Part shown: piece by piece, positions 1 through 34,583 of the stretch
Layout of the letters: the number at the start of each line of letters is the position of its first letter
Position numbering within the stretch: the stretch's first letter is position 1
Assembly (NCBI GenBank): GCA_030434875.1
Contig: JAUISW010000001.1
Span: 2,367,501 to 2,431,500, forward strand
Direction of reading: 5' to 3'
DNA from: Lachnospiraceae bacterium C1.1
Lineage (GTDB): Bacteria; Bacillota; Clostridia; Lachnospirales; Lachnospiraceae
DNA length: 64,000 bases
Notes under the pieces: generated by a model
The model's input: only the letters and a program-made list of their open reading frames with translations
Databases searched by the model: none
What the model was told of the DNA's origin: nothing
Program-made: the position numbers and the translations under genes

Positions 1-976
1 CAGAGCTTACAATCTCATTTGAAATATCAGTCATAAGCTTTGACAGTATAATTCTATTTATACAAGGTAATATCTCTGTATCTGCTAATGCATCTGCAGT
101 CTGCTTTGATACTCTCTTTTCAAGATGCATTTCATTTTCTACTGTTTCTGCAATAGAAGCATAAGAATCTGCATCATCACTATGAATCCAATCAGAAATC
201 AAGTCACTGCAATATGCCTGTAGTTGAGAATTTTCTGTCATAAAATCAGAAAGTCCATCGAAAACACTATCTGGGAGTGTTCTTCTTCCAGCGGTTAAAA
301 TAATATGAGCAGCCAACTTTCCCAGACTGTGATCCACATCATTGTATCCAGTAATCTGAGAAACCATACCCCAGAACAAATCAGATGCTTCATACTTTAC
401 AAATTCCTGATATAAATAGTTATCAGCAGAATTTAATCCTGCCTTCAGAACAGATTTAATGATTGATAGAGGATCTGTTCTCTGCGACTCTCCAATTGCA
501 GCCATTACAGCAAGTTGCAGTTTTGTAGGAGAATCCAAAGAATCCGCCAACTTAACTACATCATCTCTTCTTGATTTTGCATTTAAGAATTTACGATACT
601 TTTTGACCTGATTGCGCAGAGCAACCGATGATGGTATTCCCATTTCATCCATCCAAATTGCGATAAGATCTGCTCTAAACTCTTCACTATATAACTCAAC
701 ATCAAGAAGCCAGTTATCATCTGGTTTCTCATAATTCATAGAGTTATATATCAAGAAATTCTGGGTAGGTTCATCTACAGCAATCGTCTTCTTAATAGCA
801 AAATTATTATTCCCTGTAAGGCAAAGAACTTTTGCATTATGAAGTTCTAAATCATTAATCTGATCTATGAACTCACCTTCCTCGTCGTACCAAATAATAA
901 TTCTTCTTTTATAGAACTCAGGAAGGACAGCCAAAAAACGCTTATTCAATTCCTGACTAATTGTTTGTAAATCCAT
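1..976 (-). CDS. pglZ: BREX type 1 alkaline-phosphatase-like protein PglZ (N-terminal part, cut by window edge)
   Basis: Partial gene read leftwards off the window; about 325 codons are visible without a stop. The ATG at 976 follows a Shine-Dalgarno AAGGAATG and lies 12 bases after the pglX stop. The protein opens MDLQTISQELNKRF and then has IIIWYDEEGEF, which resembles the start of PglZ proteins, where a WYDxxGEF segment recurs. PglZ is an alkaline-phosphatase-superfamily protein needed for BREX phage exclusion; its metal-binding phosphatase domain would lie in the missing C-terminal part. The position directly after pglX matches the type 1 BREX order brxA-brxB-brxC-pglX-pglZ-brxL. The identification rests on gene order plus the N-terminal segment, so it is strong but not complete. 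Confidence 0.85.
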   Translation of the reverse strand, partial: MDLQTISQELNKRFLAVLPEFYKRRIIIWYDEEGEFIDQINDLELHNAKVLCLTGNNNFAIKKTIAVDEPTQNFLIYNSMNYEKPDDNWLLDVELYSEEFRADLIAIWMDEMGIPSSVALRNQVKKYRKFLNAKSRRDDVVKLADSLDSPTKLQLAVMAAIGESQRTDPLSIIKSVLKAGLNSADNYLYQEFVKYEASDLFWGMVSQITGYNDVDHSLGKLAAHIILTAGRRTLPDSVFDGLSDFMTENSQLQAYCSDLISDWIHSDDADSYASIAETVENEMHLEKRVSKQTADALADTEILPCINRIILSKLMTDISNEIVSS

Positions 977-988
977 GAAATCATTCCT

Positions 989-3900
989 TTACTTTATTTT
1001 CGCCAATACATCCTTAAAGATGTCATAGTTCTTTTTTACACCTTCATCAAGGTCAATAGAGATCATCTGATCGGCAAGATGATGAATTCGCTCCTCATAT
1101 TCGTGAAGCTCTTCATCTTTTTCTTTAAGCATTTTTAACTTTTTATCCAATTTCACCTTATCAGATCCAGAAACACTAAATTGTCTTTGTTCAATTTCGT
1201 CTATTGCTGTTCTATACCTAGACTGAAGTTCATGAACATAATCTGTTCTAATTCGAGCAATAATATCCTCACGATATCTGTGCATATAGATTAAACATTT
1301 AAAACCATTCTTTTTGCCTGAATCAAACAGCCAATATATAGGTCGTTTACCAGCTCCTGATAAAGAGTATATGTCACAAATATCAGTATATAAGTCGTTC
1401 ATGAAATATTCTCTAATTTTATTTTTGGGCGTACCAGAACCTTTTAACGAATCAGCAATATAAGACAAGTTTTCTTCTAAATCTGCTTCCCCAAAAGCGG
1501 CCTTTATAAACTCAATAAATCTTACAACTATATCATCATCAAAATATTCATCATCAGTGATCGGAATTATGTCATCATTATCAACTGAAAACGAACTAGA
1601 TTCTGGAATTGTAGTGTAATTATTTGCACAAATTATTCCAGGTTGTTCCAGTGAATACCTTCCAAACATACAGCCTACAGCATAGACTATAAGGCTTCTA
1701 ATATCTTTCTCTCTGCTAGCCAGTCCACATGACGATTCAAGTGACTTTTCATCTACACTAAAGTCAATCTCGTTTTCTAGACCATAAATATCAATAAACA
1801 GCTCATTTATACGTTCCTCATTTTTTTTCAAACGTACAAATCTGTTTCTACAATCATCATCCCATTTAGCAAATGCGTCAGAAATTTTACCCTTTCCATA
1901 TTCTAAAAGAGGATGTTTCTTAAAGTCGAATGATTGCTCGTGAGAATCCCAATCTTTCTTAGCTATTTCTACGCAATCTTCAACCAATTGATCTATCTCT
2001 GGTTTTCTTTCTCTGTCAAAATAAACCGGTATACGTGCCATATCTCCAACCTGAGTAGAAATAGTCGGGTTTAGTATTTTTATGCATTTCTGGGATATCT
2101 TCGAATTTAAAAATCCCAAAACATATTTAATATTCTGTTCCGCAGGGAAACCGCTCGATCCCTTAACGTCAAACAAAAAACCACCTTCACAATACCTACC
2201 CGAAAATGAAGCACTCGTAATATCAGACCATGTAATACATGGTTTCAGGTAAAATTGAGGATTTCGTATAACAGCACCCGGATATTTTCTCACATCCCTA
2301 CCATTGTATTCCCAGTTTATTACATAGCTTCTATTTCCATACCATCGTCTAAATGCACCACCCTTATTGTACGGAAACCATTTATGAATGCCATCATTTG
2401 TATCATCAAGATTTGTATACCCAAATCCAATCTTTGAATAGTCACATTCAAACCATAATCTTAAAAACAAATCATTTTTAGCTGTCTGCAGTCCTACTTT
2501 AGGTTCAGCAATCGCTTTCAGTGGTTGCGCACTTTCAAATACATTTAACAACTTTTCACTTGCCATAAAGGCAATAGGAAATCCCTCGATTCTATAAAAA
2601 TTGCTCTTATCAAAACTATGGAAATATGGTTTTGTATTGTCTTCTATAGCTTCAAGAACCTTTTTCTTCTGAATTTCCATGCCACCAGTAAATGCAGATA
2701 AATCAAAATATGATCCAACTTTTTGACTATTATCATTGGTGAGAACAAAAGTACAGATTGGAACTGTTGCTTCTTCATACGCAGAATACTCCATCTGAAT
2801 CAAAGTCGATATTCCTTTATTATCAATCAAATGCTTTCTAAGTTTTTCATACGATTTGATATACATCCAAACAAAGGGTGTCATAAATCCAGCATATCCA
2901 TCCGCTGTGGCATACTTCAAGTTTCTATAAATGAATACACTAAATAAATCTGCTGAATAATCTTTATAATTACTAAGCAAATACTGCTTTAAATCCTCAT
3001 TATATTTATTTAGGTATGGCGGATTTGTTGCTACCACTTTATATTTTGCAGCCATTATCTTAGCAACATTAATCAATGGTACTAATTGTTCATCTACCGC
3101 CATTTTTTCCAGACAAATATCATCTTCAATCTCAAGGATTCTCTTATCTATGTTTTCCCAATCTTTGTTTTTTACATCAATTAGCGATCCATAATTCTTT
3201 GCATCTCTAAATTCTAGAATTAAATCATTTATGTCTCTTTCTAAAGAACTATCGCCGGCACAAAAATAATCAATTACATATTTTTCTACATGATTACTCT
3301 CACGAATTGCATATATATGAGGTTGAATCCCCTTATGAAAAAAACGTCTGTCATATTGTCTAGCTTTCATCATTAGTGAAAAATATGCTAGTTGAGCAGC
3401 TCTTCCATCGATATCCAACCCAAAAATATTGTGCTTTAGTATTGCTTCAACTGCTTCACGATCAGAATAACCATATTCACGATAGATTTTCAGGAATACC
3501 TCAAATGCGTATATTGCAAAATGACCTGAACCGATACAAGGATCAAAAAAAGTCAATTCTTCCGGACTTATCTTTGCATCTACTTTCCTGCCTATATTTT
3601 GCCCGATAAAATAATCTAATTCATTGTTAATAGTTGAATTGTTATGTTCTACCCAATATCTACCGATTGAATTATCTATAATATATCTAACAACCCAGTT
3701 TGTAGTAAAAAGCTGAGTTGCCGCAGGAATATCCTGCTTTTTCACTGGTCCCTTATTACTAATATTAACTACTTCTTCATGTTTTTCTGAAATGTAATAT
3801 TGATAAAACCAGCCAATTATTTCTAGTTCTCCTCCTTTGGAAGATACATCAAAATCATTCTCTTCAACATCGCTAATTAATCTATCTATTACGCTACCTT

Positions 3901-4438
3901 CTCTGAGTAAATAATCTGGTAGCAACAATTCTGTATAATCAGCTATTTTCTGAAACATTACAGGCAAGATGGAATTCAAATCGTTACATTGTGCAATTAG
4001 TAAATATTTAAAAAGCTCCTCCTCTTGATTATTCTCTTTCATCTCGTATATTTTGTTTCTGTCAATTCCTTGCAATTCGATATGAAGAGCTTCTGTTAAA
4101 ATTTGTGGTCTAAAGTTATTGTTATCATCAGTAAATACTCGCACATGGCTTGGTAAATATCCATTAACTTCCATAAATCGTAAAGCGACAAAGCGGTTAA
4201 ACCAAGTGTAGGCTACTTCTTCCATCACCTGTTCAAATCCTTCTTCAGCTATTCTTCTGATTAGCGCCTGTCTTTGTTTTCTTTCCGTTGAAGTCAATAA
4301 CGTGCCATTAATGCTTTCAATATTATTATCAGGTACAACACCATCTTCTATACCATACTGTAGTGCCTTTTGAGTAACCTTCTCTACTAATTCACTCCTA
4401 GCCCACACTGCATATTTCTTAATCGCATTCTTATCCAT
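989..4438 (-). CDS. pglX: BREX type 1 adenine-specific DNA methyltransferase PglX
   Basis: A 1149-residue protein of the usual PglX length. Methyltransferase motif I, DPCIGSGHF, is at residues 299-307 and the catalytic motif IV, NPPY, at about 472-475, as expected for an N6-adenine DNA methyltransferase of the Eco57I/PglX type. In BREX this enzyme marks host DNA at a non-palindromic site and is also required for blocking phage replication. The region after the methylase core (about 600-1149) should hold target recognition and BREX-specific domains. The ATG at 4438 has a Shine-Dalgarno AAGGAG 7 bases upstream and is 12 bases downstream of the brxC stop, so the two are one operon. The frame is intact. 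The gene is visibly AT-rich compared with the conjugation genes. Confidence 0.95.
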   Translation of the reverse strand: MDKNAIKKYAVWARSELVEKVTQKALQYGIEDGVVPDNNIESINGTLLTSTERKQRQALIRRIAEEGFEQVMEEVAYTWFNRFVALRFMEVNGYLPSHVRVFTDDNNNFRPQILTEALHIELQGIDRNKIYEMKENNQEEELFKYLLIAQCNDLNSILPVMFQKIADYTELLLPDYLLREGSVIDRLISDVEENDFDVSSKGGELEIIGWFYQYYISEKHEEVVNISNKGPVKKQDIPAATQLFTTNWVVRYIIDNSIGRYWVEHNNSTINNELDYFIGQNIGRKVDAKISPEELTFFDPCIGSGHFAIYAFEVFLKIYREYGYSDREAVEAILKHNIFGLDIDGRAAQLAYFSLMMKARQYDRRFFHKGIQPHIYAIRESNHVEKYVIDYFCAGDSSLERDINDLILEFRDAKNYGSLIDVKNKDWENIDKRILEIEDDICLEKMAVDEQLVPLINVAKIMAAKYKVVATNPPYLNKYNEDLKQYLLSNYKDYSADLFSVFIYRNLKYATADGYAGFMTPFVWMYIKSYEKLRKHLIDNKGISTLIQMEYSAYEEATVPICTFVLTNDNSQKVGSYFDLSAFTGGMEIQKKKVLEAIEDNTKPYFHSFDKSNFYRIEGFPIAFMASEKLLNVFESAQPLKAIAEPKVGLQTAKNDLFLRLWFECDYSKIGFGYTNLDDTNDGIHKWFPYNKGGAFRRWYGNRSYVINWEYNGRDVRKYPGAVIRNPQFYLKPCITWSDITSASFSGRYCEGGFLFDVKGSSGFPAEQNIKYVLGFLNSKISQKCIKILNPTISTQVGDMARIPVYFDRERKPEIDQLVEDCVEIAKKDWDSHEQSFDFKKHPLLEYGKGKISDAFAKWDDDCRNRFVRLKKNEERINELFIDIYGLENEIDFSVDEKSLESSCGLASREKDIRSLIVYAVGCMFGRYSLEQPGIICANNYTTIPESSSFSVDNDDIIPITDDEYFDDDIVVRFIEFIKAAFGEADLEENLSYIADSLKGSGTPKNKIREYFMNDLYTDICDIYSLSGAGKRPIYWLFDSGKKNGFKCLIYMHRYREDIIARIRTDYVHELQSRYRTAIDEIEQRQFSVSGSDKVKLDKKLKMLKEKDEELHEYEERIHHLADQMISIDLDEGVKKNYDIFKDVLAKIK

Positions 4439-4450
4439 GCTACCTTCTCC

Positions 4451-7400
4451 TTAATTTATTTGTATTCCATCACTTCCCTGTAAGTACTGTTTCATCTGCT
4501 TACGGATATTTTCTACATAAGCATCAATATCCTCATCGGATTTAAGCACCTTTGCAGGGAACATCTGCTGTCTTGCAATCTTCTTAATGATTTCCTTCTT
4601 TACAGGAGGCTTTTTTTCACTAGCATCTTCCGGTTTCACTACAGGAACTAGCTTTGGCCTCATAGCTGACTCAATCGCCATAGTCGCTCTGTCTTTTTCT
4701 GCCCACATCGGTACTGACATACCATCAAGAAGCGCCAAACTCTTTTCAGCAGCGATCTGTTCTTTCTTCTGATCAAAGAACTTATCTGCTCTTTCTGAAA
4801 TGAGCTTTGTTTCTTCATTTGCAAAAGCATTCTCATGAATAGCCTCTAAGCACGAACGAACTATTTCAAGAAGATTTTCTCTCTTTTCATCAAGCATTGC
4901 ATCATGAGACTTTTCTACAATACTCTGCAACTCATTCAGTTCTGGTATACGCTTATAGTCATATGCTTTCCCATCTATTACATGCGTGATAAGTCTCATC
5001 TGATTAAGAGCATGCTCTGCTTCCTGATCATGACTGATATAATCCAAATCATTCTTGAGGCTCTCTACAAAGTTTGCTGCATTATCAAATACCGAAACCT
5101 GGGTTTTAAAGAAGCTCTCAACATTCTTCAGGTGATCCTGCATATCATAGAGTGTATCCTCACTTGCTACTACTTTATCTATGAGTGCAATGTTGTCACT
5201 CTTCTGAGAAAGAACATCTCTTACAACTCTTACAGCATCTCGAACTGCTGAATGATCAGGGTACTTATGTCCTTCATATTTTTCACTAAGTTCATTGTAA
5301 TGAGCTTCAAGTTTTTCAAACTCAGTAATGATAAATGCTATAAGACCATCTTCATCTGCAGGTACGTCCATTACATCAAGGAAGTCTCTTAAAAAATCTC
5401 TTGCTTCTTTAACCTTTGCAGGGCTTACAACATGACGTTTTGTAATTTCTGTCTTTCCTACTTCACTCTTCTTACGAAGCATATCTGGTAGCCTAGAATC
5501 AGTCGGCTGAATTGTCATACCACTGTACTTAATAGTTACCTTCTGTTCATAGATAAGAAGTGCAACTACTGCAGCTATATCAATCTCTCTCCAACCACTT
5601 GGAATACCTTGATATCTTGCCTGGATATCTGACATCTTAGTAGTGATATGCTTCATATCCTGCATTTCAAGATATTCTTCAATCTTCTGAGCCGCTCCAC
5701 TGTTAGGATTTGTTCCTGCAATATACTGCTCTGCTCCTGTAAGAATTGAAACAATATCAGAATCATCGTTGGCATTCTTTCCTACAAGTTCAAGATCGTA
5801 ATATACATGAGTAACAAGATACTCAAGAGACTGATCTAATTTACTCTTAGCATCACCACCCTTAATCTCAATATGCTCGCCATCTACATAGAACTCAGCC
5901 GTCTCGATAGCCTTCTTGATTGCATCAAGAGCATCTTTTTCATACTTTGTAGCCTCATCCTGCTGATTACGGATAATATCCTGAACAGACTTAGGAAGCT
6001 GTGCTACATTTCTTGTCTTTACATACTTTCTAATCTTCAGAGCATTCTCAATAAGCTCATAATATTTACCATCTCCAAGAACAACAATTGCCTGCCCCTT
6101 AGAGTTTGTTTGTAATCTAAGCTCATTCTTTTCAGTATCATCTGTTGCGATAGAATAAATCTGTAACTTCATTCCTCCAGTAACAGATCCATTTGCCTGA
6201 CCATCCACATACTGGTCATATGGGAAGTCATAGATCTTATAACGATACTTCTTCTTATCGTAAATATCGCCAAATACAAGATGACCAATTCTTTCGATAA
6301 TCTGAGCAGTATCTACTGATGTATCTTTGATTTCTCTTGCGATATCCTGCTCTTCATCAGTAAGGAAGTTATATGTATTACCAGTTCTACCAATGTAGTT
6401 CTGGCTAAGAAGTCTATCTAAAGATTCTCGAACCTGCTCACGCATCTGAATCTTATCCATGTTGATATTATCAGCCATAAGGATAACGATAGAATCCAAA
6501 GTTGACTTCACATCATTGTCCAGATAACGAATCAAATAAAGGAGTTTTAATACATCAACATCCTGAGGTTTGATACCTCTGTCTTCATCAGCCGCTGTCT
6601 GACATCTTTCGATAACACGACGAATAGCACCGTCCAAAAATGTATGAACAGTGTCGTAGAAAAGATAGAATGGAGCAATGCTGTATTCATCTTTATTTTC
6701 AATTTTCTGTGCAGCTTCCTGAAATCCTGAAAGCATAGATCTCTCACCACCGGATAAGTGCTTACCAGCGTTACCATGCTTACGAATCTCAGAGAATACC
6801 TTCTGCATCAAAATAAACTGATATGGAACAAATGGGAAATTCTTAGAGAAATCCTGGGCTGTTTCATATCCTCTGATATCTAAGAGTGCATCATCCTTAT
6901 TGAACTTAAGTAAGTTTCTAAGCACAGAATCACTTGATTCAAATACTTCTGTAAGTCTCTTATCAGCTTCATCTGTCTTAGACAAAATTCTCTTTTGAAT
7001 AACCTCATCTGCAGATGCAGATGAAAGAGAAAGTCTTGTCTTAAATCTTGCCTGAATACGTGAGAACTCATCCTGACGAGTCTTAATGATCTCATCAAGT
7101 GCTTCCTGGCCAGTACAAACAACCCACACTTTTCCTTCGCACTCACTACCGATTTTTTCTACAAGTGACTGTAAGTTAATAAGATGATCCGTGTTACTTC
7201 CGATGTACTGACCAACCTCATCAATCATGAATAATAAGCGGAAGTTATCCGGCTTTGTATTTACATAATCCTTAATCTCAGATACAAGCTGAGCAATACT
7301 CATTTCTACTGTCTCAGTACCATTGAACCAATTACGAGAAGCTTCTTCGCTCATTCCAAGAACTTGCTGTAATGTTTCAACAATATCATCTTCCCAGAAT

Positions 7401-7999
7401 GCAAAAGCATCTCTGGACTCAAGCCAAGGCTGTCCATTTTTTTCTTCAAATACTCTTCTGAATTCTTCTGTTTTACCTTGTTTATCAATAAACTGTTCAA
7501 GCTTAGCAACCTTAAGATCCTCACCATAGAATCCAAGATAGTTATAAAACATCTTTGCAAATACTCGAAGTACTGCTGTAGCATCTTTATTGATAGACCC
7601 CTCAATATCAATATTGAAAAGGATTGTATCTGTTTCCCCTTTAGTTGCACGGTCAATGAGCATAAATGTAGCTGGATCATCTTCGAACTTACTGCGGAAT
7701 CGCTCTACAGTTCTAATACCATCTACTTCTTTATTCTCTAAGATGTATGAAAGAATCTTCAAGAAGTGAGATTTACCACTTCCAAAGAAACCAGAAATCC
7801 ATACACCAATGTCTGCTGTTTTATCATTAAATGCATCACCATAATTATTAAAGAATGAAATAAAATGCTTCTTCAATTCTTTTGTGATAACATATTCATT
7901 CAATTCCTGCACCAATACATCATTGGCATCCTGATCTACTTTAACGACACCATTAATTTTTCTATCAATGTCGTCCTTAAACATCTGCTGAATCTTCAT
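4451..7999 (-). CDS. brxC: BREX P-loop ATPase BrxC
   Basis: A 1182-residue protein with a Walker A loop GFFGSGKS at residues 70-77, preceded by GVWIS, as in BrxC/PglY proteins, and a Walker B-like segment LLFMIDEVGQYI near residue 250. BrxC is a large ATPase, distantly related to Orc/Cdc6-type AAA proteins, and is an essential core component of BREX. The C-terminal third is rich in charged helices. The ATG at 7999 has a GGAGGG Shine-Dalgarno. It sits 18 bases after brxB and 12 bases before pglX. Several long antisense open frames inside it are coding shadows. No frameshift is seen. Confidence 0.95.
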   Translation of the reverse strand: MKIQQMFKDDIDRKINGVVKVDQDANDVLVQELNEYVITKELKKHFISFFNNYGDAFNDKTADIGVWISGFFGSGKSHFLKILSYILENKEVDGIRTVERFRSKFEDDPATFMLIDRATKGETDTILFNIDIEGSINKDATAVLRVFAKMFYNYLGFYGEDLKVAKLEQFIDKQGKTEEFRRVFEEKNGQPWLESRDAFAFWEDDIVETLQQVLGMSEEASRNWFNGTETVEMSIAQLVSEIKDYVNTKPDNFRLLFMIDEVGQYIGSNTDHLINLQSLVEKIGSECEGKVWVVCTGQEALDEIIKTRQDEFSRIQARFKTRLSLSSASADEVIQKRILSKTDEADKRLTEVFESSDSVLRNLLKFNKDDALLDIRGYETAQDFSKNFPFVPYQFILMQKVFSEIRKHGNAGKHLSGGERSMLSGFQEAAQKIENKDEYSIAPFYLFYDTVHTFLDGAIRRVIERCQTAADEDRGIKPQDVDVLKLLYLIRYLDNDVKSTLDSIVILMADNINMDKIQMREQVRESLDRLLSQNYIGRTGNTYNFLTDEEQDIAREIKDTSVDTAQIIERIGHLVFGDIYDKKKYRYKIYDFPYDQYVDGQANGSVTGGMKLQIYSIATDDTEKNELRLQTNSKGQAIVVLGDGKYYELIENALKIRKYVKTRNVAQLPKSVQDIIRNQQDEATKYEKDALDAIKKAIETAEFYVDGEHIEIKGGDAKSKLDQSLEYLVTHVYYDLELVGKNANDDSDIVSILTGAEQYIAGTNPNSGAAQKIEEYLEMQDMKHITTKMSDIQARYQGIPSGWREIDIAAVVALLIYEQKVTIKYSGMTIQPTDSRLPDMLRKKSEVGKTEITKRHVVSPAKVKEARDFLRDFLDVMDVPADEDGLIAFIITEFEKLEAHYNELSEKYEGHKYPDHSAVRDAVRVVRDVLSQKSDNIALIDKVVASEDTLYDMQDHLKNVESFFKTQVSVFDNAANFVESLKNDLDYISHDQEAEHALNQMRLITHVIDGKAYDYKRIPELNELQSIVEKSHDAMLDEKRENLLEIVRSCLEAIHENAFANEETKLISERADKFFDQKKEQIAAEKSLALLDGMSVPMWAEKDRATMAIESAMRPKLVPVVKPEDASEKKPPVKKEIIKKIARQQMFPAKVLKSDEDIDAYVENIRKQMKQYLQGSDGIQIN

Positions 8000-8017
8000 T
8001 CTATATAACCCTCCAAG

Positions 8018-8575
8018 TTAAATTGCATTAAACGCTCTATAATATCCATTAGGTTCTAACTTATCAAAAAGCCTAAGCTGTCTTCCATTGAAACTACCGG
8101 GATACATAACCAAGATTGGAATGTTTGGTACTTCCGGTTGTATCGCTTCAAGAAGCGCATGAACTCTTGCAAAAGGAAATACTTCCCCGACTCCTGTAAT
8201 AAGAAGTACATCTCCATCCCTCTGCTCTTCTGGTTTAATCTTTTCAACGAAAGCTTTATTATTTGCAAATCTGAGAATCTGATCTTTCAGATACTCTTTG
8301 CCTTTCTTCTCTTCCATTGATGCAGCGCCTTTTGTAATACGCTTGTCATCGCAAATCTCTAAAAATGCTCTATAAAGATTTTTTTCTATTACGTGGCATG
8401 CCAAATCTTGATCAGCTACAAGCTGCTCTGTAAAATATCTAACTGCCATCTCATCTGCAGGATCATAGCAAAAGATATGAATATTCACCTCATTGCTAAG
8501 TCCATTTCCTTTAAGGAAATCTTCTTCCTGAATTCTCGTTTTTAGTTTATCCAGACGTTCTAAAATATCGCTCAT
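8018..8575 (-). CDS. brxB: BREX protein BrxB (DUF1788)
   Basis: A 185-residue protein that begins MSDILERLDKLKTRIQEEDF and ends with the segment ILVMYPGSFNGRQLRLFDKL, a typical DUF1788/BrxB C-terminus. BrxB is a small conserved component of BREX whose biochemical role is not settled. The ATG at 8575 has an AGGAGA Shine-Dalgarno 8 bases upstream. It lies 24 bases after the brxA stop and 18 bases before brxC, consistent with one transcript. The family call rests on both the sequence and the gene order. Confidence 0.93.
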   Translation of the reverse strand: MSDILERLDKLKTRIQEEDFLKGNGLSNEVNIHIFCYDPADEMAVRYFTEQLVADQDLACHVIEKNLYRAFLEICDDKRITKGAASMEEKKGKEYLKDQILRFANNKAFVEKIKPEEQRDGDVLLITGVGEVFPFARVHALLEAIQPEVPNIPILVMYPGSFNGRQLRLFDKLEPNGYYRAFNAI

Positions 8576-8599
8576 GTATCAATCTCCTAGACTCTCTAT

Positions 8600-9205
8600 T
8601 TAGTAAAAACAATTGAATGCTGGCAACGCCACATCATTACCATCCGCTCTTATTGCATTATCTACTTCAGAGCAAATCATAACAGGATTAAGCTTCGTTG
8701 CTCTCGGTCCATCAATATATTCATTCTCTATGAGAATCTTATTGAGTACCTGCTTAATCTTATTTATGGTTGCGTCACTCCAAGCAGCAACTTCATCATC
8801 CTGTTCCTGCAAGCGCATGAAGAAAACGTTTAGATTCATCCTGCTGTAAGATAAATCCTGCTCTCTAAACTTTGCACCAATTACAGTAATCATGAAATCC
8901 CATACGAGACGGTACTGCTTCATCATGGCATAAAGGCAAACCTGTTTTCCAACTTCCATAGGACTGTGTGCTACTGTTTTTATAAGTTCATCATCACCAA
9001 GACATCTCAACCTTCTTAGACATCCTGTTACAGTTCTTTTCAAACTCTTTTCTGTTGGAAACTGAAAAAGGTTATCTTCGATGATTCTCGAAATAATCTC
9101 TTCATCACTGAGATTATCATCCACCAGCAGCCTCGCAACTATTCTTGTTTCATAGAATAGAAACTGTTCTCGTGTAATTGCACCACTGCCTTTATAATCA
9201 CCCAA
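8600..9205 (-). CDS. brxA: BREX protein BrxA (DUF1819)
   Basis: About 200 residues. The N-terminus GAITREQFLFYETRIVARLL matches the conserved opening of DUF1819/BrxA, a small helical DNA-binding protein found at the head of BREX operons. Two starts are possible. A GTG at 9214 has no properly placed ribosome site because it lies inside the AGGTGA motif. A TTG at 9205 has that AGGTGA five bases upstream, so I prefer the TTG. Either start is close to, or overlaps, the end of the HTH gene (stop at 9198), implying translational coupling. Confidence 0.9.
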   Translation of the reverse strand: MGDYKGSGAITREQFLFYETRIVARLLVDDNLSDEEIISRIIEDNLFQFPTEKSLKRTVTGCLRRLRCLGDDELIKTVAHSPMEVGKQVCLYAMMKQYRLVWDFMITVIGAKFREQDLSYSRMNLNVFFMRLQEQDDEVAAWSDATINKIKQVLNKILIENEYIDGPRATKLNPVMICSEVDNAIRADGNDVALPAFNCFY

Positions 9206-9425
9206 GCTCGTCACCTACTTTTTCTTTTTTCTCGTAATGAATCAAATCACCAAAATCGCAATCGAGCTTGTCACAAATTTTTTCCAAAACTAACATTGAT
9301 ACCGGCTCGCCCTTACTCATTTTGGCAATTGTACCGCTGCTGAGTTTTACCTCATTCATCAAATCTGTTTTATTCATGTTGTTGTCGATTAATAATTTCC
9401 ATAATCCGTTATATGAAATACTCAT
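9198..9425 (-). CDS. Small XRE/Cro-type HTH regulator at the head of the BREX operon
   Basis: A 75-residue protein made almost wholly of one helix-turn-helix domain: NGLWKLLIDNNMNKTDLMNE for the first helices, then LSSGTIAKMSKGEPVSM for the recognition region. It resembles the YozG/HTH_26 group of Cro-like regulators. Its 3' end overlaps or abuts the brxA start, so it is the first gene of the defence operon and probably an autoregulator. It is not the larger WYL-type BrxR regulator known from other BREX loci. The likely operator is the dyad at 9443-9463 in its own leader. Confidence 0.75.
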   Translation of the reverse strand: MSISYNGLWKLLIDNNMNKTDLMNEVKLSSGTIAKMSKGEPVSMLVLEKICDKLDCDFGDLIHYEKKEKVGDELG

Positions 9426-28828: not shown

Positions 28829-28868
28829 AAAAAAACACCCGCAAAGTAGGTGTAATCTGCAATGCGGG
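28829..28868 (-). terminator. Terminator of the 33.7-28.9 kb cargo operon
   Basis: On the minus strand CCCGCA (28868-28863) pairs with TGCGGG (28843-28838), with further small stems in the loop, and is followed by seven T residues (28835-28829). It separates the cargo operon from the XRE promoter immediately downstream. Confidence 0.7.
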
Positions 28869-28902
28869 CATTCCATAGGTTAATACACTATAATGCTACT
28901 TC

Positions 28903-29100
28903 TTACTCTTCCCAAATATCGCAGTCCTCGATATCAGCATCGATATAATCTTCACCAGCAAGCATCAGCGTTTCTCTTCCTGCATTCCAATTTTCGAGCC
29001 ATGAATCATACTCATCCTGAGCATCCTGCTCCGTTTCAAAATCTTCATCAACAAGCTCTGATGAACCATCACTAAAATGAATTTCTAATTTCCATGCCAT
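28903..29100 (-). CDS. Small acidic protein, last gene of the cargo operon
   Basis: A 65-residue, very acidic protein that starts MAWKLEIHFSDGSSELVDED and ends EDYIDADIEDCDIWEE. The ATG at 29100 has GGAGGTATT upstream; the longer frame lacks a ribosome site. It follows the phosphoribosyltransferase gene by 35 bases and is the last gene before the terminator. I do not recognise a family. It could be an inhibitor or DNA-mimic-like protein, or less likely a substrate of the radical SAM enzyme; both are guesses. Confidence 0.6.
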   Translation of the reverse strand: MAWKLEIHFSDGSSELVDEDFETEQDAQDEYDSWLENWNAGRETLMLAGEDYIDADIEDCDIWEE

Positions 29101-29135
29101 AATGAATACCTCCTTAAACAATTGAAAACATACAA

Positions 29136-29636
29136 TCAAAGTTGATTAAACAATCGCATTGTCGTATCTGGTCCCTTATTGCCTTTTTGAGTTTTTACTG
29201 CACTTCCAACAAACGAATTAGTCGAAACCCTTACTGTATAAAGCTTATCATCAAAAAGAGGAACCGCCTTATCATTGATTACACAACTTGCAACTTTTAC
29301 GTCATCATCAATAAGATTAACTATCGTCTTTCCTGTATTTATTACGGAATCAACTAGAATAACATTTTTAGTAGTTGGTCGTTTAAACTCCCCCTGCTTT
29401 GGATCATATACTTCAAATTTGCATCCCAGCTTAAAATAAATACCCTGAGCAAAGAATATTCCACCCCTAAGTAATGCAACAACAGTTGTATCTGCTGGTT
29501 CTAAATCGATATTCTCTGCTAATAGCTCTCCAAGTCGAATATGAGCTTTTGCAAGCTCTGGTCCCGAAATTCCTGAATCCGATTTCGTAATTGCAATTAA
29601 TTCTTCCACTTCTTTAGTTTTATTAAGTTCGAACAA
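29136..29636 (-). CDS. UPRT-like phosphoribosyltransferase
   Basis: About 166 residues, type I phosphoribosyltransferase fold. The PRPP-binding loop VILVDSVINTGKT is at about 92-104, the pyrophosphate loop is ALLRGGIFF near 55, and the C-terminal GPDTTMRL resembles the base-binding end of uracil phosphoribosyltransferases. It should join a nucleobase (or a modified base) to PRPP, or run in reverse. The start is judged to be a TTG at 29636, with AGGAGG eight bases upstream; the GTG at 29645 overlaps that site. It overlaps the kinase-HAD gene by 14 bases. Too divergent and too oddly placed to be a housekeeping Upp. Confidence 0.82.
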   Translation of the reverse strand: MFELNKTKEVEELIAITKSDSGISGPELAKAHIRLGELLAENIDLEPADTTVVALLRGGIFFAQGIYFKLGCKFEVYDPKQGEFKRPTTKNVILVDSVINTGKTIVNLIDDDVKVASCVINDKAVPLFDDKLYTVRVSTNSFVGSAVKTQKGNKGPDTTMRLFNQL

Positions 29637-30681
29637 TTTCAACACCTCCTAAATCCTTTCCCTTTAAGGATCTACTAATTGTTCCGTCTTCTTTAGGGAT
29701 AAGATAACCAACATCCGCTTTTTTTAGCATATAATAATCGTTCATTCCATCCCCGTAGGCTATCACAGTCTTTCCGGCTTCTTGGAGCTTCTTTGTAATA
29801 AAGAATTTTGTTTCAGCCGACATTTCTATTCCAGCAAAAAAAGGAACGCCCAAATAGTCCGATATAAATCTCCATACACGCTCATGACCTGAAGTAAGTA
29901 TGAAGGAATTCTTATTCAAGGCTTTACATACTTTTTCGTTTAGACCAACAGGTAATTCTTTCAAATCATCAAAACTATATGTTTTGAATTCTTCAGCCTG
30001 CCTCCAGGATTGAAATCCTGTATAAAAATTACCATCATATATATGCGTAGTATATCCGAATACTGCATGTGAACTGTCTTCTTTTGTAATCGTCTTGTCT
30101 CCGTCCAAAAGAGTTATTACTTCTGAATCTGAGCAATTTAAGATTTTTTCGGCACAATCTGCTGCTAACCGTTTGCAGCTAAAACCATTTGCAATAGCTT
30201 TTATGAATTCAACAACTTCAGTGATGTCAGTAAAATAATTATCCTTCGGATTGTCTATTACATAAAAATCTTTATTATTCTTATGACAGTAATCACGTAA
30301 GCTTTCAATTTCATTAATTTGCCATTTTTCTATATCATAAGATAAGTACTTCTTGTTCTTATCTGATTCTCTCATTCGCTTTATAAGTACATCTGGTGAA
30401 ATATAAAGGTAAAGAATAACATCGTATAGCTGTCCATCCATATCAGTAAAAGCGACTTTATCGCCAAATGCATAGTGACCATCCATAATGAAGGATTCTA
30501 CACGTAATAGTCTTTTAACTAACTCTTCACGAGCCATTTTTTTCCCATGATCGTCTTCTAAATCAAAAGAAGGACATATTTCACGTAAGAGAACACTGCC
30601 CGACATAACTTCTAGAAAATCTACTTTATCCAAAATATAAGTTTTTCCAGCAGTTGGCATACCATATAATCCGATTCTCAT
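29623..30681 (-). CDS. P-loop nucleotide kinase fused to HAD phosphatase
   Basis: A 352-residue two-domain protein. Residues 1-170 form a P-loop kinase of the deoxynucleoside/thymidylate-kinase type, with Walker A GMPTAGKT at 7-14 and FIMDGHY near 64-70. Residues 185-352 are a HAD hydrolase with all four motifs: DGDKT at 193-197, TS at 263-264, K292 and GDGMND at 310-315, as in phosphoserine-phosphatase-like enzymes. Opposing kinase and phosphatase activities in one chain suggest processing of a nucleoside or nucleotide. The ATG at 30681 has AAGGAG upstream and overlaps the radical SAM stop by four bases. Confidence 0.85.
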   Translation of the reverse strand: MRIGLYGMPTAGKTYILDKVDFLEVMSGSVLLREICPSFDLEDDHGKKMAREELVKRLLRVESFIMDGHYAFGDKVAFTDMDGQLYDVILYLYISPDVLIKRMRESDKNKKYLSYDIEKWQINEIESLRDYCHKNNKDFYVIDNPKDNYFTDITEVVEFIKAIANGFSCKRLAADCAEKILNCSDSEVITLLDGDKTITKEDSSHAVFGYTTHIYDGNFYTGFQSWRQAEEFKTYSFDDLKELPVGLNEKVCKALNKNSFILTSGHERVWRFISDYLGVPFFAGIEMSAETKFFITKKLQEAGKTVIAYGDGMNDYYMLKKADVGYLIPKEDGTISRSLKGKDLGGVEIVRT

Positions 30682-31490
30682 AGCGACTCCTTATAACAAT
30701 AATTTCTGTCAAAATCTAACGATATCTTTTCTAATTCTTCAAATGTCATATCGCTTTTTCCAACAGGAGGTAAGTCAATACAATTACCACAGAAATACAC
30801 ATACCCATTAGCAAAAAAATAGTTATTTGTTCCGGCGCCACACTGTCCACCGTACATTGTACAATCAAGCCCGCCTCTTCTTACTTCTAGTGTCTTTTCA
30901 GCACGTTCTAAAAAATCACGGTATTCTTGCAGAGAGATTCCATATCTACCTATCATTCTCGAAAAGGTCACTCGCACTCCAAATGGCTTGAAAAAGTTTA
31001 TAACCTTATCAGCATTTAACAAACTATCCTCTCCCACAGTCGCATTAAATGTAGGATAATGTCCGGTCACACGTTTGTATTCCGCAACATTGTGCATAGC
31101 CTTGTCAAAAGAGTTACCGCGATTCTTGTCATGTAGTTCCTTATAACCATCTATGGAAAAACCAACATTCACATTATGATTCTCAAGGAATCTCCAATCC
31201 TCATCACTCAAAGGCACCGTTCCGTTGGTAATTGTATAAATACTTATATTAGGATAATTCTCTAGATAAGTAATATACGACTTAAGTTTAGGCCAATCTA
31301 ATAATCCTTCGCCATTTCCTACAAAGCCTATCTTAAAGTTTCCCTTGGCGTAGGCTTTAACATTATCCAAGATCTTAAACACATCCATATCCGCATCATC
31401 CAAGATGCCTTTTTCATGAAAGTGGCAATACTTACATCCCAAATTGCAGCGATTATTGATGGATATACAAATCCTATTAATCATTGCCAT
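30678..31490 (-). CDS. Radical SAM protein with SPASM/twitch-like C-terminus
   Basis: About 270 residues. The iron-sulfur motif CNLGCKYC is at residues 15-22, GNGEGLLDW follows as the glycine-rich SAM-binding segment, and a TITNGT strand lies near 90. The C-terminus has CTMYGGQCGAG and YFCGNC, a cysteine arrangement of the SPASM/twitch kind that can hold an extra cluster. It should generate a 5'-deoxyadenosyl radical to modify a peptide or small molecule; the substrate is unknown. The start could be GTG 31493, ATG 31490 or ATG 31484; all overlap the stop of the upstream gene (31477). Confidence 0.85.
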   Translation of the reverse strand: MAMINRICISINNRCNLGCKYCHFHEKGILDDADMDVFKILDNVKAYAKGNFKIGFVGNGEGLLDWPKLKSYITYLENYPNISIYTITNGTVPLSDEDWRFLENHNVNVGFSIDGYKELHDKNRGNSFDKAMHNVAEYKRVTGHYPTFNATVGEDSLLNADKVINFFKPFGVRVTFSRMIGRYGISLQEYRDFLERAEKTLEVRRGGLDCTMYGGQCGAGTNNYFFANGYVYFCGNCIDLPPVGKSDMTFEELEKISLDFDRNYCYKESL

Positions 31491-32754
31491 CACTCTCTTT
31501 CAACATACTAATAAGTTCTTCATTACCCCTATCGTAGGCGTAATCCAAAGCAGTCTTTTTATCCTTGAAAGACATTATATTTTTATCAGCTCCATGTTCC
31601 AAAAGATACTTCAAGATTGAAGCATCCTCCTTGTGAAAAACCGCCTTCATCAGTGCCGTAAAACCATTCTTCATATCCTGCTGGTTAATATAAGCACCAT
31701 TTTCTACAAGCAGCTTCACAAGATTCAAATGCCCATGCCATGTAGCAATCATTAATGGCATATTGAAGGGATTTGTCTCACTCTGAGAAGGCTCATTTAC
31801 ATTAGCTCCATTTTGGATTAATAACTTTGCAAAATTCTCTGCGTCTCTTCCATTTTGCATTTGCATAACATGCGATAATGGTGGCAAATAATGTTTTTTG
31901 TTATCTACCGCATTAACATCTATTCGATCTAGCGAAAGCAGGTACTTTACCATTTCTTCATCCTTATTAACTAATGCCTGTATTAATGGCGTATATCCTG
32001 ATCTAGAATCAATAGCGTTTACATTTATGCTTTTTCCTTTCTTCTCCAAAAGATTTTTTGCAGAATCTAAGTCGCGTTTCAAAACAGCCACAAAAAATCT
32101 TTGCGAAAGTGCATCATTATAACCATCCTTCTCGCTAAAGATCTTACTATATTGATTTGATCCGATTATTCTCAGATTAGTTAATCCTTTCGTATTCTTA
32201 AGAATGAAGTCTTTATCATTAGTCAAAAGATAAACTGAATTTGAAATATCTTTCTCCGCCAGTTTTATCGCTATATCCAAGATTTTATCATCGTTACTTC
32301 CATCAATATCAGAATCTGTGTGAATATCCAACTTTTCAGTCTTTTTCTTTCCGATAATATCTTCACACAAAGAAGCATTTCTGCGTTCCTTTTCTTTTCC
32401 ATGATCCTTTTGATAATTTATCTCTTCAATAACCGGGATTGGAATATACACCTGGTCACAGTCTTTAAGTAGAACTCCTAACATTTCAGGACGATTCAAC
32501 AAAATGTTGGTATCAACAACCACAATATTTTTAGATTTTACATCTATAAGCTCATTAAAATTGATATTTGTAATCTGCGCCAGTTTTACTAACACTTCAA
32601 AACTTGGTGCCTGAGAACCATTTTCAATAAAACTTAATGTTGTTCTGCTGATTCCTAGTTCCTTTGCAAATGCCTCTTGCTTAATATCTGCATTATTACG
32701 GTATTCTATAATTTTTTGTCCTAAATCTATAAGTCTCTGATCCGGTGTACTCAT
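31477..32754 (-). CDS. HTH-PIN ribonuclease-ankyrin repeat fusion protein
   Basis: About 425 residues in three parts. An XRE helix-turn-helix lies at about 10-65 (FAKELGISRTTLSFIENG). A PIN nuclease domain spans about 76-200 with a full acidic set: VVVDTN at about 79, EEIN near 111, the DDK-D region near 157 and TNDKDF at about 178. Then five ankyrin repeats run from 215 to the end (for example GYTPLIQALVNKDEE, LMIATWHGHLNLVKLL, ALMKAVFHKEDASIL). It may sense a ligand or protein through the repeats, bind DNA and cut RNA. The ATG at 32754 has GGAGG seven bases upstream. Confidence 0.88.
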   Translation of the reverse strand: MSTPDQRLIDLGQKIIEYRNNADIKQEAFAKELGISRTTLSFIENGSQAPSFEVLVKLAQITNINFNELIDVKSKNIVVVDTNILLNRPEMLGVLLKDCDQVYIPIPVIEEINYQKDHGKEKERRNASLCEDIIGKKKTEKLDIHTDSDIDGSNDDKILDIAIKLAEKDISNSVYLLTNDKDFILKNTKGLTNLRIIGSNQYSKIFSEKDGYNDALSQRFFVAVLKRDLDSAKNLLEKKGKSINVNAIDSRSGYTPLIQALVNKDEEMVKYLLSLDRIDVNAVDNKKHYLPPLSHVMQMQNGRDAENFAKLLIQNGANVNEPSQSETNPFNMPLMIATWHGHLNLVKLLVENGAYINQQDMKNGFTALMKAVFHKEDASILKYLLEHGADKNIMSFKDKKTALDYAYDRGNEELISMLKESDGND

Positions 32755-32780
32755 ATCCAATCCTCCATACTTTTGACAGA

Positions 32781-33077
32781 TTAAAATTCTGGTGTAACGG
32801 TTACCTCTTCATCAAGTACCTCATTCATCTTTTCAACAAGTACCTGTTCTGCATCCTTAGCCTGTTCAGCTGTTACTTTCTTCTTTTTAAAGTGCTTAAT
32901 TGCCTTGGCGCCCAAGTATAAGCAGCCAGCTCCGACAACAATCACCCCATCAATGATTAACTGCTCTTTTCTGCCTTCCTGAAAAGAATGATCTTTTACA
33001 ATCTGAAGGTACTTTTCTGGTCCTCCAAATTCCTTTGCGGTGTGTGCAAGATTTGCATAATCCCAATCCTTAGCCAT
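32781..33077 (-). CDS. Small single-pass membrane protein of the cargo operon
   Basis: A 98-residue protein with one membrane segment (LIIDGVIVVGAGCLYLGAKA, about 39-58) between a soluble N-terminus (MAKDWDYANLAHTAKEFGG) and a basic then acidic C-tail. The ATG at 33077 has GGAGGAAC upstream, 13 bases after the exonuclease stop. No family is recognised. In a defence setting such proteins can be membrane effectors or anchors, but that is only inference. Confidence 0.65.
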   Translation of the reverse strand: MAKDWDYANLAHTAKEFGGPEKYLQIVKDHSFQEGRKEQLIIDGVIVVGAGCLYLGAKAIKHFKKKKVTAEQAKDAEQVLVEKMNEVLDEEVTVTPEF

Positions 33078-33090
33078 TGTACGTTCCTCC

Positions 33091-33741
33091 TTATGCTAAC
33101 TGTAAGTTTTTAAATAAATCGCCCATTGTAAAGCAAAGTGAATCGCTGCTTTCACTGTGAGCATTTTCAAAGTAACTATTAAGTTTTAATTCTGGCTCCA
33201 ACATCATTTTGGCAAATAGTTTTGCTGTATTTTCTGCATCAACTAATCCATCATGTTCGTGACCCTCCTGGATAATATCTGCAGCAATAAGAGCTTCTGA
33301 TAATCTGAAGATTCTTTCTTCTTCTAATCTTTCTGAAAACATCTTCTGACAATCAATCCAAGTGGCTAATATAGATTCAAGTCTTTCATCTTCAATCAGC
33401 TTTGCCTCAGCCTCTTTCTGAATCTGCTTAAGATCGTTGTCACTCCAGGATACAACAAAAGCATCTTCCGGAATCCAAGCTATAAATGCTTTCATTGCTT
33501 CTCTCATTGTTGGCGCACTTTTCAAATCTTTTGAAGTAATTCCAGTGAGATTAGTAATAAACCAATCCAATGATCCAAACTCTGGTCTTACATATGTATT
33601 GAATTCATCAACCACTTCGTACTTTTCATTTAAAAGCACTGCACCGATTTGGATGGTTTCGTTCGCTCCATGAAATTCCTTTTTTCTGTTTGAATAAGGT
33701 ACTTTACACATTTCAAGATCAACAACTACATATTGGTTCAT
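33091..33741 (-). CDS. DEDDh 3'-5' exonuclease (DnaQ/RNase T family)
   Basis: A 216-residue exonuclease. Exo I is VVDLEM (residues 6-11), Exo II lies around VVSWSDNDLKQIQ (about 95-107) and Exo III is HEHDGLVDAENTAKLF (about 160-175), giving the D-E-D-D-h acidic/histidine set. It should trim DNA or RNA 3' ends. It is the first gene of the cargo operon; the ATG at 33741 has AGAGGAG upstream. It is not fused to a polymerase and is clearly not the replicative PolC proofreading domain. Confidence 0.88.
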   Translation of the reverse strand: MNQYVVVDLEMCKVPYSNRKKEFHGANETIQIGAVLLNEKYEVVDEFNTYVRPEFGSLDWFITNLTGITSKDLKSAPTMREAMKAFIAWIPEDAFVVSWSDNDLKQIQKEAEAKLIEDERLESILATWIDCQKMFSERLEEERIFRLSEALIAADIIQEGHEHDGLVDAENTAKLFAKMMLEPELKLNSYFENAHSESSDSLCFTMGDLFKNLQLA

Positions 33742-33791
33742 ATAATCATCTCCTCTTAATCTGATTTATAAGTGCGCTCCTTATGTTTTAT

Positions 33792-33860
33792 ATTTTAACA
33801 TCACTGTGCTATAAGTAAATAGCTATGTTTAATTTGTTTAACATTCTTTACACTGTTTAA
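33792..33860 (-). promoter_or_regulatory. Promoter of the cargo operon with upstream TGTTTAA repeats
   Basis: On the minus strand -35 TTTACT (33819-33814) and -10 TAAAAT (33797-33792) are 16 bases apart, about 50 bases from the exonuclease start. Directly upstream are three copies of TGTTTAA, read on the plus strand at 33826, 33835 and 33854. The first two are 9 bases apart, which may mark a regulator site. The boxes are moderate matches. Confidence 0.5.
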
Positions 33861-33873
33861 AATCCTAACATAA

Positions 33874-33903
33874 GAAAACCGGTAGGCTTTTACCCCTACC
33901 GGT
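33874..33903 (-). terminator. Rho-independent terminator after the XRE repressor gene
   Basis: On the minus strand perfect nine-base arms ACCGGTAGG (33903-33895) and CCTACCGGT (33886-33878) are followed by TTTTC. It isolates the XRE gene from the cargo operon. Confidence 0.85.
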
Positions 33904-33925
33904 CCATAAAGCTAATTATTTAGTT

Positions 33926-34261
33926 TTAAAGCAATCCTTCAACCTTACGCTTTATTACCCAATAAACATCTTCAACTTCTCGATCAGATAGTTTTTCGAG
34001 TAACTTAAGGAAAGAACTATACTTAGCAGTTAATCTCTGCTCGTCTCCTGCTTCTGTAAATTCAACAAAGAGCAATTCTCTCACATCTACATTATAAATA
34101 CGAGAAAACTGAGCAAGCTCATCTGCAGATATACTTCTCTTACCTGCTTCCATCTCACTAATCGCTCTCTTTGCAACATTCATAAGATTAGCAGCCTCAT
34201 CCTGGGATAATCCTTTCTTCACACGTGCTTCTTTAAGCTTTTTACCCGTAAATTCAGACAT
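33926..34261 (-). CDS. XRE-family repressor at the right end of the element
   Basis: A 111-residue protein. A classical HTH lies at residues 5-60 (LKEARVKKGLSQDEAANLMNVAKRAISEMEAGKRSI, split by turns), and a C-terminal helical segment of about 45 residues could mediate dimerisation. The ATG at 34261 follows AAGGAGG. It has its own terminator and its leader contains two palindromic operators, so it is autoregulated. A position at the outer edge of an ICE suits an element-state repressor, but control of the cargo operon is equally possible. Confidence 0.82.
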   Translation of the reverse strand: MSEFTGKKLKEARVKKGLSQDEAANLMNVAKRAISEMEAGKRSISADELAQFSRIYNVDVRELLFVEFTEAGDEQRLTAKYSSFLKLLEKLSDREVEDVYWVIKRKVEGLL

Positions 34262-34429
34262 TTTTAACCTCCTTCAAAGTTCCGATTTTCGGAACAAACA
34301 TCAAAATGGTCCATTTTTCGTGTTACGATTTTCGGAACAAATGCTCCGAAATTTTGTCGAATGTAGTCAGCAAAAAATGTATGAAGTACTCCGGCAGCTT
34401 AATTGAATTTTATCTTTGTGTAAAAAAAT
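34262..34429. promoter_or_regulatory. XRE operators and probable element-chromosome junction
   Basis: The palindrome GTTCCGA-TTT-TCGGAAC is at 34279-34295 and a near copy GTTACGATTTTCGGAAC at 34322-34338; a third half-site CTCCGAA lies near 34344. These flank where the XRE promoter should be and are likely its operators. The rest to 34429 is AT-rich with no gene. Since conjugation-type genes end here and housekeeping ppdK begins, the right end of the ICE probably lies in this stretch. I cannot define the attachment core because the other end is outside the window. Confidence 0.5.
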
Positions 34430-34456
34430 ATAGGGTGTCTAAAGTAGACACCCTAT
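34425..34456 (-). terminator. Terminator of ppdK
   Basis: On the minus strand the stem GGGTGTCT and AGACACCC (about 34435-34454) with a short loop is followed by TATATTTTTTT. It lies about 130 bases past the ppdK stop. The bases between hold no gene. Confidence 0.8.
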
Positions 34457-34583
34457 ACTAGGAATAGCTTGATTACAAGCTTTTCGGGAAATCTGAACCC
34501 GTTTTTCTTATGATAAATCTTTGAAGATTGTCTCATAAAATCCTTCGAGATTTCAAAAGTTCCCAAAAAACAACTGGTCTCGC

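Follow-up and report, generated by a model that had tools for sequence, protein, structure and literature searches.

A conserved mobile gene set that joins a predicted RNase and regulator to a radical SAM enzyme, a kinase-HAD protein and a phosphoribosyltransferase

Among described bacterial systems, CBASS and Thoeris are built on nucleotide signals, and pathways for nucleoside metabolites were reportedly predicted beside Ter genes by Anantharaman and others in 2012. PIN nucleases form a second point of reference: in the DefensePredictor systems DS-3 and DS-5, the PIN nuclease is required for phage protection (PMC13092281). A third is the radical S-adenosylmethionine (SAM) superfamily, for which we used the seven-cysteine SPASM and CX9-15GX4C motif definitions given in PMC6231123. 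Here we describe a four-gene set in a 64,000-nucleotide stretch of Lachnospiraceae bacterium C1.1 (contig JAUISW010000001.1, positions 2,367,501 to 2,431,500 of the forward strand), hereafter the window, to which all coordinates refer unless a locus is named. The set, which is carried by anaerobic bacteria, encodes a protein with helix-turn-helix (HTH), PIN and ankyrin parts (HPA), a radical SAM enzyme, a protein with kinase and HAD domains (kinase-HAD), and a phosphoribosyltransferase (PRTase). It may be an immune or exclusion system that has gone unrecognised.

The four core genes lie on the minus strand in the order HPA (31477..32754, with an ATG start), radical SAM enzyme (30678..31484; 268 residues), kinase-HAD (29623..30681; 352 residues) and PRTase (29136..29636; 166 residues), with successive overlaps of 8, 4 and 14 bases. 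The TTG start of the PRTase was picked by homology and by an AGGAGG upstream. The first-pass annotation had suggested looking for these overlapping genes as a set in other genomes, and the set does recur, in 23 kinase-HAD loci and in searches with other anchors. The 23 loci comprise 17 from a search of one genome per species, four from IMG/VR, one from a whole-genome search (G375, L048) and the window itself; not every one counts as independent, since L021 and L022 are near-identical to the window and L026 is close to L043, and duplicate records (L038, L050, L063 and L068; L039 and L049; L065; L070 and L075) were left uncounted. PRTase stands downstream of kinase-HAD in 23 of 23 loci and the radical SAM gene upstream in 21 of 23 (exceptions L024 and L035). 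HPA is likewise upstream in 21 of 23, L035 having none and L025, which begins within the block, not being judgeable. Both L024 and L035 look decayed: the former has a shortened HPA directly beside kinase-HAD, and in the latter the start of kinase-HAD is unmatched.

Searches from the other genes gave the same arrangement. With the radical SAM enzyme as anchor (E up to 1e-20), 4 of 391 genomes of the class matched, each with HPA upstream: the window's own genome, those of L028 and L023, and a new one, G850 (L067). Two of the four fall outside the window's family. Kinase-HAD and PRTase were not found in G850, whose contig stops just past the radical SAM gene. When HPA was the anchor (E up to 1e-25), 6 of 397 genomes of the family matched (the window's own, those of L028, L048 and L029, and the new loci L074 and L076), and radical SAM and kinase-HAD genes followed downstream in all. 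HPA, radical SAM enzyme, kinase-HAD and PRTase constitute one conserved mobile system.

The two new loci from the HPA search, L074 (G1370) and L076 (G1270), have no separate PRTase; a single open reading frame (ORF) of 547 or 540 residues matches the kinase-HAD profile (1.2e-92 and 1.3e-90), followed by that of the PRTase (8.7e-49 and 4e-45). The L076 fusion has 624 relatives, and among the 120 matches listed 112 are 530-547 residues long. Because kinase, HAD and PRTase domains are fused in one polypeptide in other genomes, there is strong sequence evidence that they would work in one pathway. Three further joined proteins (P0277, P0308 and P0293) consist of the start of HPA, radical SAM enzyme or a recombinase attached to the remaining kinase-HAD-PRTase; we rejected them as true fusions, as they look like population deletions or assembly chimeras.

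The self-contained seven-gene system envisaged in the first pass did not hold, since only the four genes are kept across loci; the remaining three are local accessories. A gene for a DEDDh exonuclease (33091..33741, minus strand; RNase_T 3.9e-15) is confined, among the clustered loci, to the near-identical pair L021 and L022; L023 gave no exonuclease match, and a broken remnant is readable there by eye. The acidic gene (28903..29100, minus strand; 65 residues) also occurs only in L021 and L022, and its product has no match in Pfam, PADLOC (version 2.0.0 of 2023 throughout) or NCBIfam and one PHROG match at 0.017. The small membrane gene (32781..33077, minus strand; one hydrophobic segment by eye) goes with the HPA class of the window, being found in L021 and L022, as a 46-residue fragment in L023 and as a weak relative in L048 (1.5e-5); its product had only sub-threshold family matches.

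The domain calls of the first pass agree with Pfam, some of them below the cut-off, and its expectation of nucleotide-metabolism chemistry accords with the predicted folds. The radical SAM enzyme (Radical_SAM 1.3e-16) starts directly with the core, leaving no N-terminal extension as a candidate RRE. All 21 sequences carry the CxxxCxxC motif that is common to the superfamily, 20 of 21 carry CX9-15GX4C by pattern (L027 was missed), and none carries the full SPASM CX2CX5CX3C; C208, C215, C232, C235 and C263 are invariant in 14 aligned sequences. By these motifs the enzyme is of the Twitch type, with one predicted auxiliary cluster. Kinase-HAD comprises a nucleoside monophosphate (NMP) kinase-like domain (residues 1-166) and a SerB-like HAD phosphatase domain (185-352). 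In Pfam, AAA_17 and AAA_18 match below the cut-off and Hydrolase_3, an HAD model, just over it, and sequence searches of the PDB yielded no full-length relative, only partial weak matches. In the structure models, the first domain has an adenylate kinase-type fold with a P-loop, the second a SerB-like fold with HAD motifs, and the PRTase the fold of a uracil phosphoribosyltransferase (UPRT). The PRTase matches Pribosyltran at 2.2e-5, below the cut-off; the UPRTase model, run on seven fused or joined relatives, scored over its cut-off in five (30.7-34.0) and under it in two (25.4 and 25.3). The genome has a separate UPRT of its own (264.8 bits, L051). The likeness of the models to adenylate kinase, SerB and UPRT makes a pyrimidine (uracil)-type nucleotide the likely substrate.

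Within the set, HPA is predicted to act both as RNase effector and as a regulator that binds DNA. Its HTH part spans residues ~11-75 (HTH_3 1.3e-15), PIN ~77-215 (PIN_4 1.9e-13) and the ankyrin repeats ~216-425 (Ank 1.2e-27). The PIN acidic residues are D81, E111, D155 and D180, and 18 of the 20 loci tabulated have one or more HPA copies that retain this quartet; HPA of L027 is truncated by the contig end. From these residues we infer that HPA would cut RNA through PIN. The PIN piece itself matched no PDB sequence. L026 and L043 have two copies, the first keeping HTH and ankyrin parts with the PIN acids lost, the second keeping PIN, its acids retained, and ankyrin repeats with no HTH; by their sequences, regulator and predicted nuclease are split there, both with ankyrin repeats. 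Median pair identity is 42% in the C-terminal ankyrin part, 29% in PIN and 23% in HTH.

HPA falls into classes. Class A, with HTH group 1, comprises L024, L028, L031, L032, L034, L036, L044 and L046; class B, L030, L033, L037 and L045; class C, L026, L029 and L043; class D is that of the window. HTH clustering puts class B with class C, except for L045, which stands alone. Pair identities were computed for 18 loci with the HTH-bearing copy, leaving out L021, L024, L025, L027 and L035 as duplicate alleles or incomplete; the medians are 71.6% for the radical SAM enzyme, 65.7% for PRTase, 59.1% for kinase-HAD and 30.6% for HPA. The radical SAM and kinase-HAD identities rise together (Spearman 0.83), and HPA follows neither (0.06 and 0.07, respectively). 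Placed on the enzyme tree, the HPA classes A, B+C and D need at least six changes where two would suffice, and shuffles average 8.6; class is therefore partly tied to the tree, yet has been repeatedly replaced. Sister pairs with differing HPA class are L037/L046 (support 1.00), L032/L033 (0.98), L044/L045 (0.95) and L028/L030 (0.75). Between the window and L022, hpa has 74-80% DNA identity against 98.8-99.6% in stretches of the exonuclease gene and 98-99.6% in those of the radical SAM gene; synonymous divergence (dS) is 0.033 and 0.045 in the latter two, and synonymous sites of hpa are saturated. Such divergence of hpa amid near-identical neighbours indicates that it was exchanged as one gene; kinase-HAD and PRTase are also mosaic (dS 0.36 each). 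On this sequence record, HPA is the exchangeable component and the enzymes stay.

Class-specific word arrays accompany these alleles. In class A, the 200 bases before HPA hold 2-6 GTTGC/GCAAC words versus 0.14-0.64 in shuffles (P < 0.01 in seven of eight loci; L031 P 0.066). The words are spaced 20-30-20, within one base, in four of the eight (L034, L036, L044 and L046), and an inverted copy lies 32-33 bases past the last word in seven of eight. The three loci found later that are of class A by eye all repeat the array, with spacings of 21-30-20-32 in L067 and 20-30-20-33 in L074 and L076. Before HPA of class B stand TGTGCA-type words instead, 2-9 of them and overlapping (P <= 0.008), and three such words also occur in the class A locus L031 (P 0.019). 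Class C HPA promoters have neither GTTGC nor TGTGCA words.

A gene of NERD type follows the cassette in L027, L028, L030, L034 and L043-L046, and in L076 as judged by its N-terminus; the two members tested in Pfam are both NERD. Several of these loci have short conserved genes behind it, and in the viral contigs the NERD-type gene lies near serine recombinases. The 300 bases after PRTase and before the NERD-type gene had no part in the choice of words. They hold 8-12 GTTGC/GCAAC words in the class A loci L028, L034, L044, L046 and L076, with about one expected, and in the class B loci L030 and L045 seven and nine TGTGCA/TGCACA words, the other kind occurring no more than once (P 0.002 each). 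The array thus matches the locus's own HPA class in seven of seven class A and B loci with the NERD-type gene. The class C locus L043 has neither array there. B words follow PRTase in L027, where the start of HPA is cut off, and A words in L025, where HPA is off the contig. Where no NERD-type gene is present, no array follows PRTase in L024, L031 or L032 of class A or in L033 and L037 of class B, and L074 has two words (P 0.034); in class D the only words there are two of the B kind, in L023 (P 0.008). We had considered the conserved stretch after PRTase, visible in several loci, as a peptide gene and rejected this, as it is the site array before the next gene. An A array (30-20-30-20, then 33) is also seen in L036 (9558-9900), before a gene that by eye begins like a lipoprotein and is not of NERD type. 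Because class-matched arrays stand in both promoters, HPA probably commands its own operon and the neighbouring NERD-type gene in these two classes. In the window's class, where neither promoter shows an array, by our comparison it is an accessory nuclease, the exonuclease, that would take this place, within the operon.

As the first-pass annotation had noted, the operon sits on an integrative conjugative element that also carries BREX genes. It adjoins ppdK at the end of the element, which encodes a relaxase, a type IV secretion coupling protein, TraG-type proteins and RepA_N; brxA, brxB, brxC, pglX and a partial pglZ, cut by the window edge, lie at 2-9214 on the same strand as the operon. 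The junction of ppdK and element is at 34262-34583, and ppdK stands directly before the element or cassette also in L022 and L023, which suggests a common insertion place. The system is rare and scattered. Of 392 genomes searched in the order, four have kinase-HAD, the window's own included; of 398 in the phylum, only the window's own gave a PRTase match. Named isolates with the system are [Eubacterium] infirmum NCTC12940 and Pseudobutyrivibrio sp. MD2005. It is also on four IMG/VR contigs, which are predicted viral fragments; by Pfam, that of L044 carries a phage capsid gene, and L045 and L046 carry serine recombinases. We had guessed at tail genes beside the cassette in L043 and L046, but Pfam did not support this for the two genes tested. 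Neither kinase-HAD nor the L076 fusion had a match in the plasmid and isolate phage collections, and no viral contig was confirmed to carry fused kinase-HAD-PRTase. In L048, the cassette lies beside AbiLi-like, AbiO/Nhi-like, MazG-like and mad2-like genes, the MazG-like gene (L048 4679-4999) preceding the membrane gene and the cassette; a PADLOC scan of ten chosen neighbour proteins gave four matches, three in L048 and one in L034. In G850, the HPA-radical SAM pair lies behind a gene end (L067 2610-3053) that by eye resembles a ribonucleotide reductase small subunit.

We give an even chance to the reading that the set is a mobile module, for immunity or exclusion, that acts through an RNase and is controlled by the product of its enzymes. 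PRTase, kinase, HAD and radical SAM enzyme would, to judge from their folds, serve the synthesis, modification or turnover of a uracil-type nucleotide, and their product would be the signal. The ankyrin part of HPA might have its state set by this product, or by its disappearance once a phage or rival element has taken over the cell. HPA once released would cut RNA by PIN, as its conserved catalytic residues suggest, and stop growth or the invader. Through the site arrays in its own and the NERD promoter, which HPA would bind in two classes other than the window's, one event could release both genes. HPA would be the specificity part, swapped between elements while the enzymes remain, and the likeliest role would be an integrated element's immunity against phages or the exclusion of competing elements. 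A more far-reaching form of this proposal, which we advance tentatively and would sooner doubt than assert, is a new mobile immune signalling system. In it, a Twitch radical SAM enzyme and kinase-phosphatase-UPRT would make a novel modified pyrimidine nucleotide that holds or releases the RNase, and the RNase would double as repressor both of its operon and of another nuclease gene, while elements would trade it, as an allele, along with its DNA sites.

Several observations weigh against an RNase module under nucleotide control. The window PRTase scores 24.1 against the UPRTase cut-off of 27, its by-eye identity as UPRT was not borne out in a profile test against the genome's own UPRT and PRTases, and its structure model is poor at 144-155. 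PRTase tracks the other enzymes only moderately (Spearman 0.38 with radical SAM enzyme, 0.49 with kinase-HAD), and HPA at 0.27. HPA class is partly bound to the enzyme tree, with only 144 of 5000 shuffles giving six changes or fewer. L024 has no radical SAM gene, and L029 seems to have no intact PIN copy, the first being degenerate and the second truncated. The array words had been picked by eye from the very sequences used in the first tests, and the window's class D has no significant array at either promoter and no NERD-type gene. The PADLOC scoring of neighbours covered ten chosen proteins with no background, and the flanks of L023, L024 and L036, among others, look ordinary by eye. Finally, the radical SAM cores nearest by sequence belong to enzymes that modify peptides or proteins (anSME 4k36, CteB-type 5wgg, YydG).

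Of the alternatives, an addiction module is the least unlikely, although we think it rather improbable. HPA would then be an autoregulated RNase toxin, with the enzymes as a small-molecule or protein-modification antidote and no specific role against phages. The combination of HTH, PIN and promoter arrays recalls autoregulated toxin-antitoxin operons, the HPA classes act like exchangeable alleles with their own sites, and the carriers are mobile. However, the core has no antitoxin-like partner gene, three enzymes would be a costly antidote, one locus lies amid defence-like genes, and the regulon also includes the NERD-type gene. We hold it to be quite improbable that HPA itself, for instance at an ankyrin residue, is what the radical SAM enzyme modifies, with kinase-HAD and PRTase acting on the same target or supplying a group, so that the whole forms a protein-modification switch. 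This would fit the nearest solved radical SAM relatives, which modify peptides and proteins, the ankyrin part as the best conserved of HPA (42%), and HPA as the sole other protein retained with the enzymes; yet the NMP kinase and UPRT folds indicate nucleotides, and Twitch enzymes also use small molecules, such as GTP in MoaA (PMC6231123).

It is very improbable that the set is a peptide or nucleoside natural-product cluster, or ordinary uracil salvage beside an unrelated regulator. Radical SAM enzymes, PRTases, kinases and HAD proteins do occur in such clusters, but no conserved short ORF was seen by eye in flanks of 600-700 bases, the conserved set has no transporter, the genome already has its own UPRT, and HPA is present at every judgeable locus except the decayed L035; classic peptide maturation was rejected on the lack of such an ORF and of the second SPASM motif. 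Least probable of all is RNA repair, in which PIN would cut RNA and the kinase-phosphatase heal the ends as T4 polynucleotide kinase-phosphatase (Pnkp) does: kinase-HAD has the domain order of T4 Pnkp, kinase then phosphatase in one chain, and the Pnkp fold is not among the structure matches listed for it.

Regarding the operon in the window, all seven ORFs were confirmed on the minus strand with unchanged positions; the claim of seven same-strand genes with short gaps (13, 26 and 35 bases) or overlaps was sound. Promoter and terminator were a mixed case, the sequences being present and the promoter score no better than chance. The promoter-like site (33792..33819, minus strand; TTTACT-16-TAAAAT with TG before the second hexamer) scores 9/12, and 22 sites of this type were found versus 24.0 expected from shuffles; by eye its sequence is retained in L023 despite the broken exonuclease gene downstream. 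Upstream of it, three TTAAACA repeats (33826..33860, minus strand) are a candidate operator, at which GTTAA/TTAAC words are not enriched (P 0.33; L023 P 0.11; L048 P 0.012 or 0.078, depending on the stretch). A terminator-like hairpin with a T run follows the acidic gene (28835..28853, minus strand). A separate HTH gene (33926..34261, minus strand; HTH_3 9e-14), the last before ppdK, lies upstream; its protein is identical in L021 and L022, and another terminator-like site follows it (33876..33905, minus strand). With terminator-like sites after both the acidic gene and the upstream HTH gene, a single seven-gene transcript is plausible; the region has eight such sites versus 3.5 expected.

If the proposal is true, it would be a new chemistry of bacterial conflict, in which a radical SAM enzyme and uracil-type enzymes are wired to an RNase that doubles as a gene switch. 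A modified pyrimidine, if found, would add a signal or antiviral nucleotide beside the products of viperin and the cyclic nucleotides. Catalytic residues, two-promoter arrays, exchangeable HPA and named isolates make the system directly testable. The kinase-HAD-PRTase fusion, the class-specific arrays and the exchange of HPA go beyond the first-pass annotation.

That annotation knew of no named defence system with this make-up, and PADLOC, NCBIfam and the literature gave us no match for the set either. No system model of PADLOC or NCBIfam matches the four genes; they are undescribed in the open-access literature searched, preprints excluded, and in the available portions of PMC7641849, PMC10853773, PMC7159879, PMC13092281 and PMC6231123. 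PADLOC matched only individual parts: HTH and ankyrin models, among them the candidates PDC-M69A and PDC-M72A, the pVip core, a weak PRTase_III-A (0.04) and, for the exonuclease, DEDDh and PDC-S48. A type II toxin-antitoxin system is not apparent, as the conserved set has no separate protein antitoxin and no second small protein. DS-3 and DS-5 differ in being one- and two-protein systems with no HTH-ankyrin protein or nucleotide-enzyme set, as far as the available text of PMC13092281 goes. Among single enzymes, the two predicted domains of kinase-HAD resemble adenylate kinase (OdinAK) and SerB in fold. The PRTase differs from UPRT in being shorter (166 residues), under the Pfam cut-off and fused to kinase-HAD elsewhere. 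With MoaA, BtrN, anSME and SkfB the radical SAM enzyme shares the core and the CX9-15GX4C auxiliary motif, but unlike SPASM proteins it has no second SPASM motif (21 of 21) and no RRE-like N-terminal extension. It is not viperin, an identity we rejected on an NCBIfam score of 37.2 bits against a cut-off of 180. Shared with pVip loci are defence-like surroundings and the pairing of a radical SAM enzyme with a nucleotide kinase, and the PADLOC pVip models match the radical SAM core (1.4e-12); what sets the window system apart is its auxiliary-cluster cysteines, PRTase, HAD and RNase partner. The system shares with the Ter-linked pathways a PRTase and an HAD protein in a predicted nucleoside pathway, but there is no Ter-named model among the PADLOC matches and PRTase_2 scores 13.6 bits against a cut-off of 28.8. 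From CBASS and Thoeris it differs in its enzymes, no cyclase, TIR or known sensor having been found in it; the likeness lies in the proposed logic, in which a small nucleotide-type molecule would control an effector.

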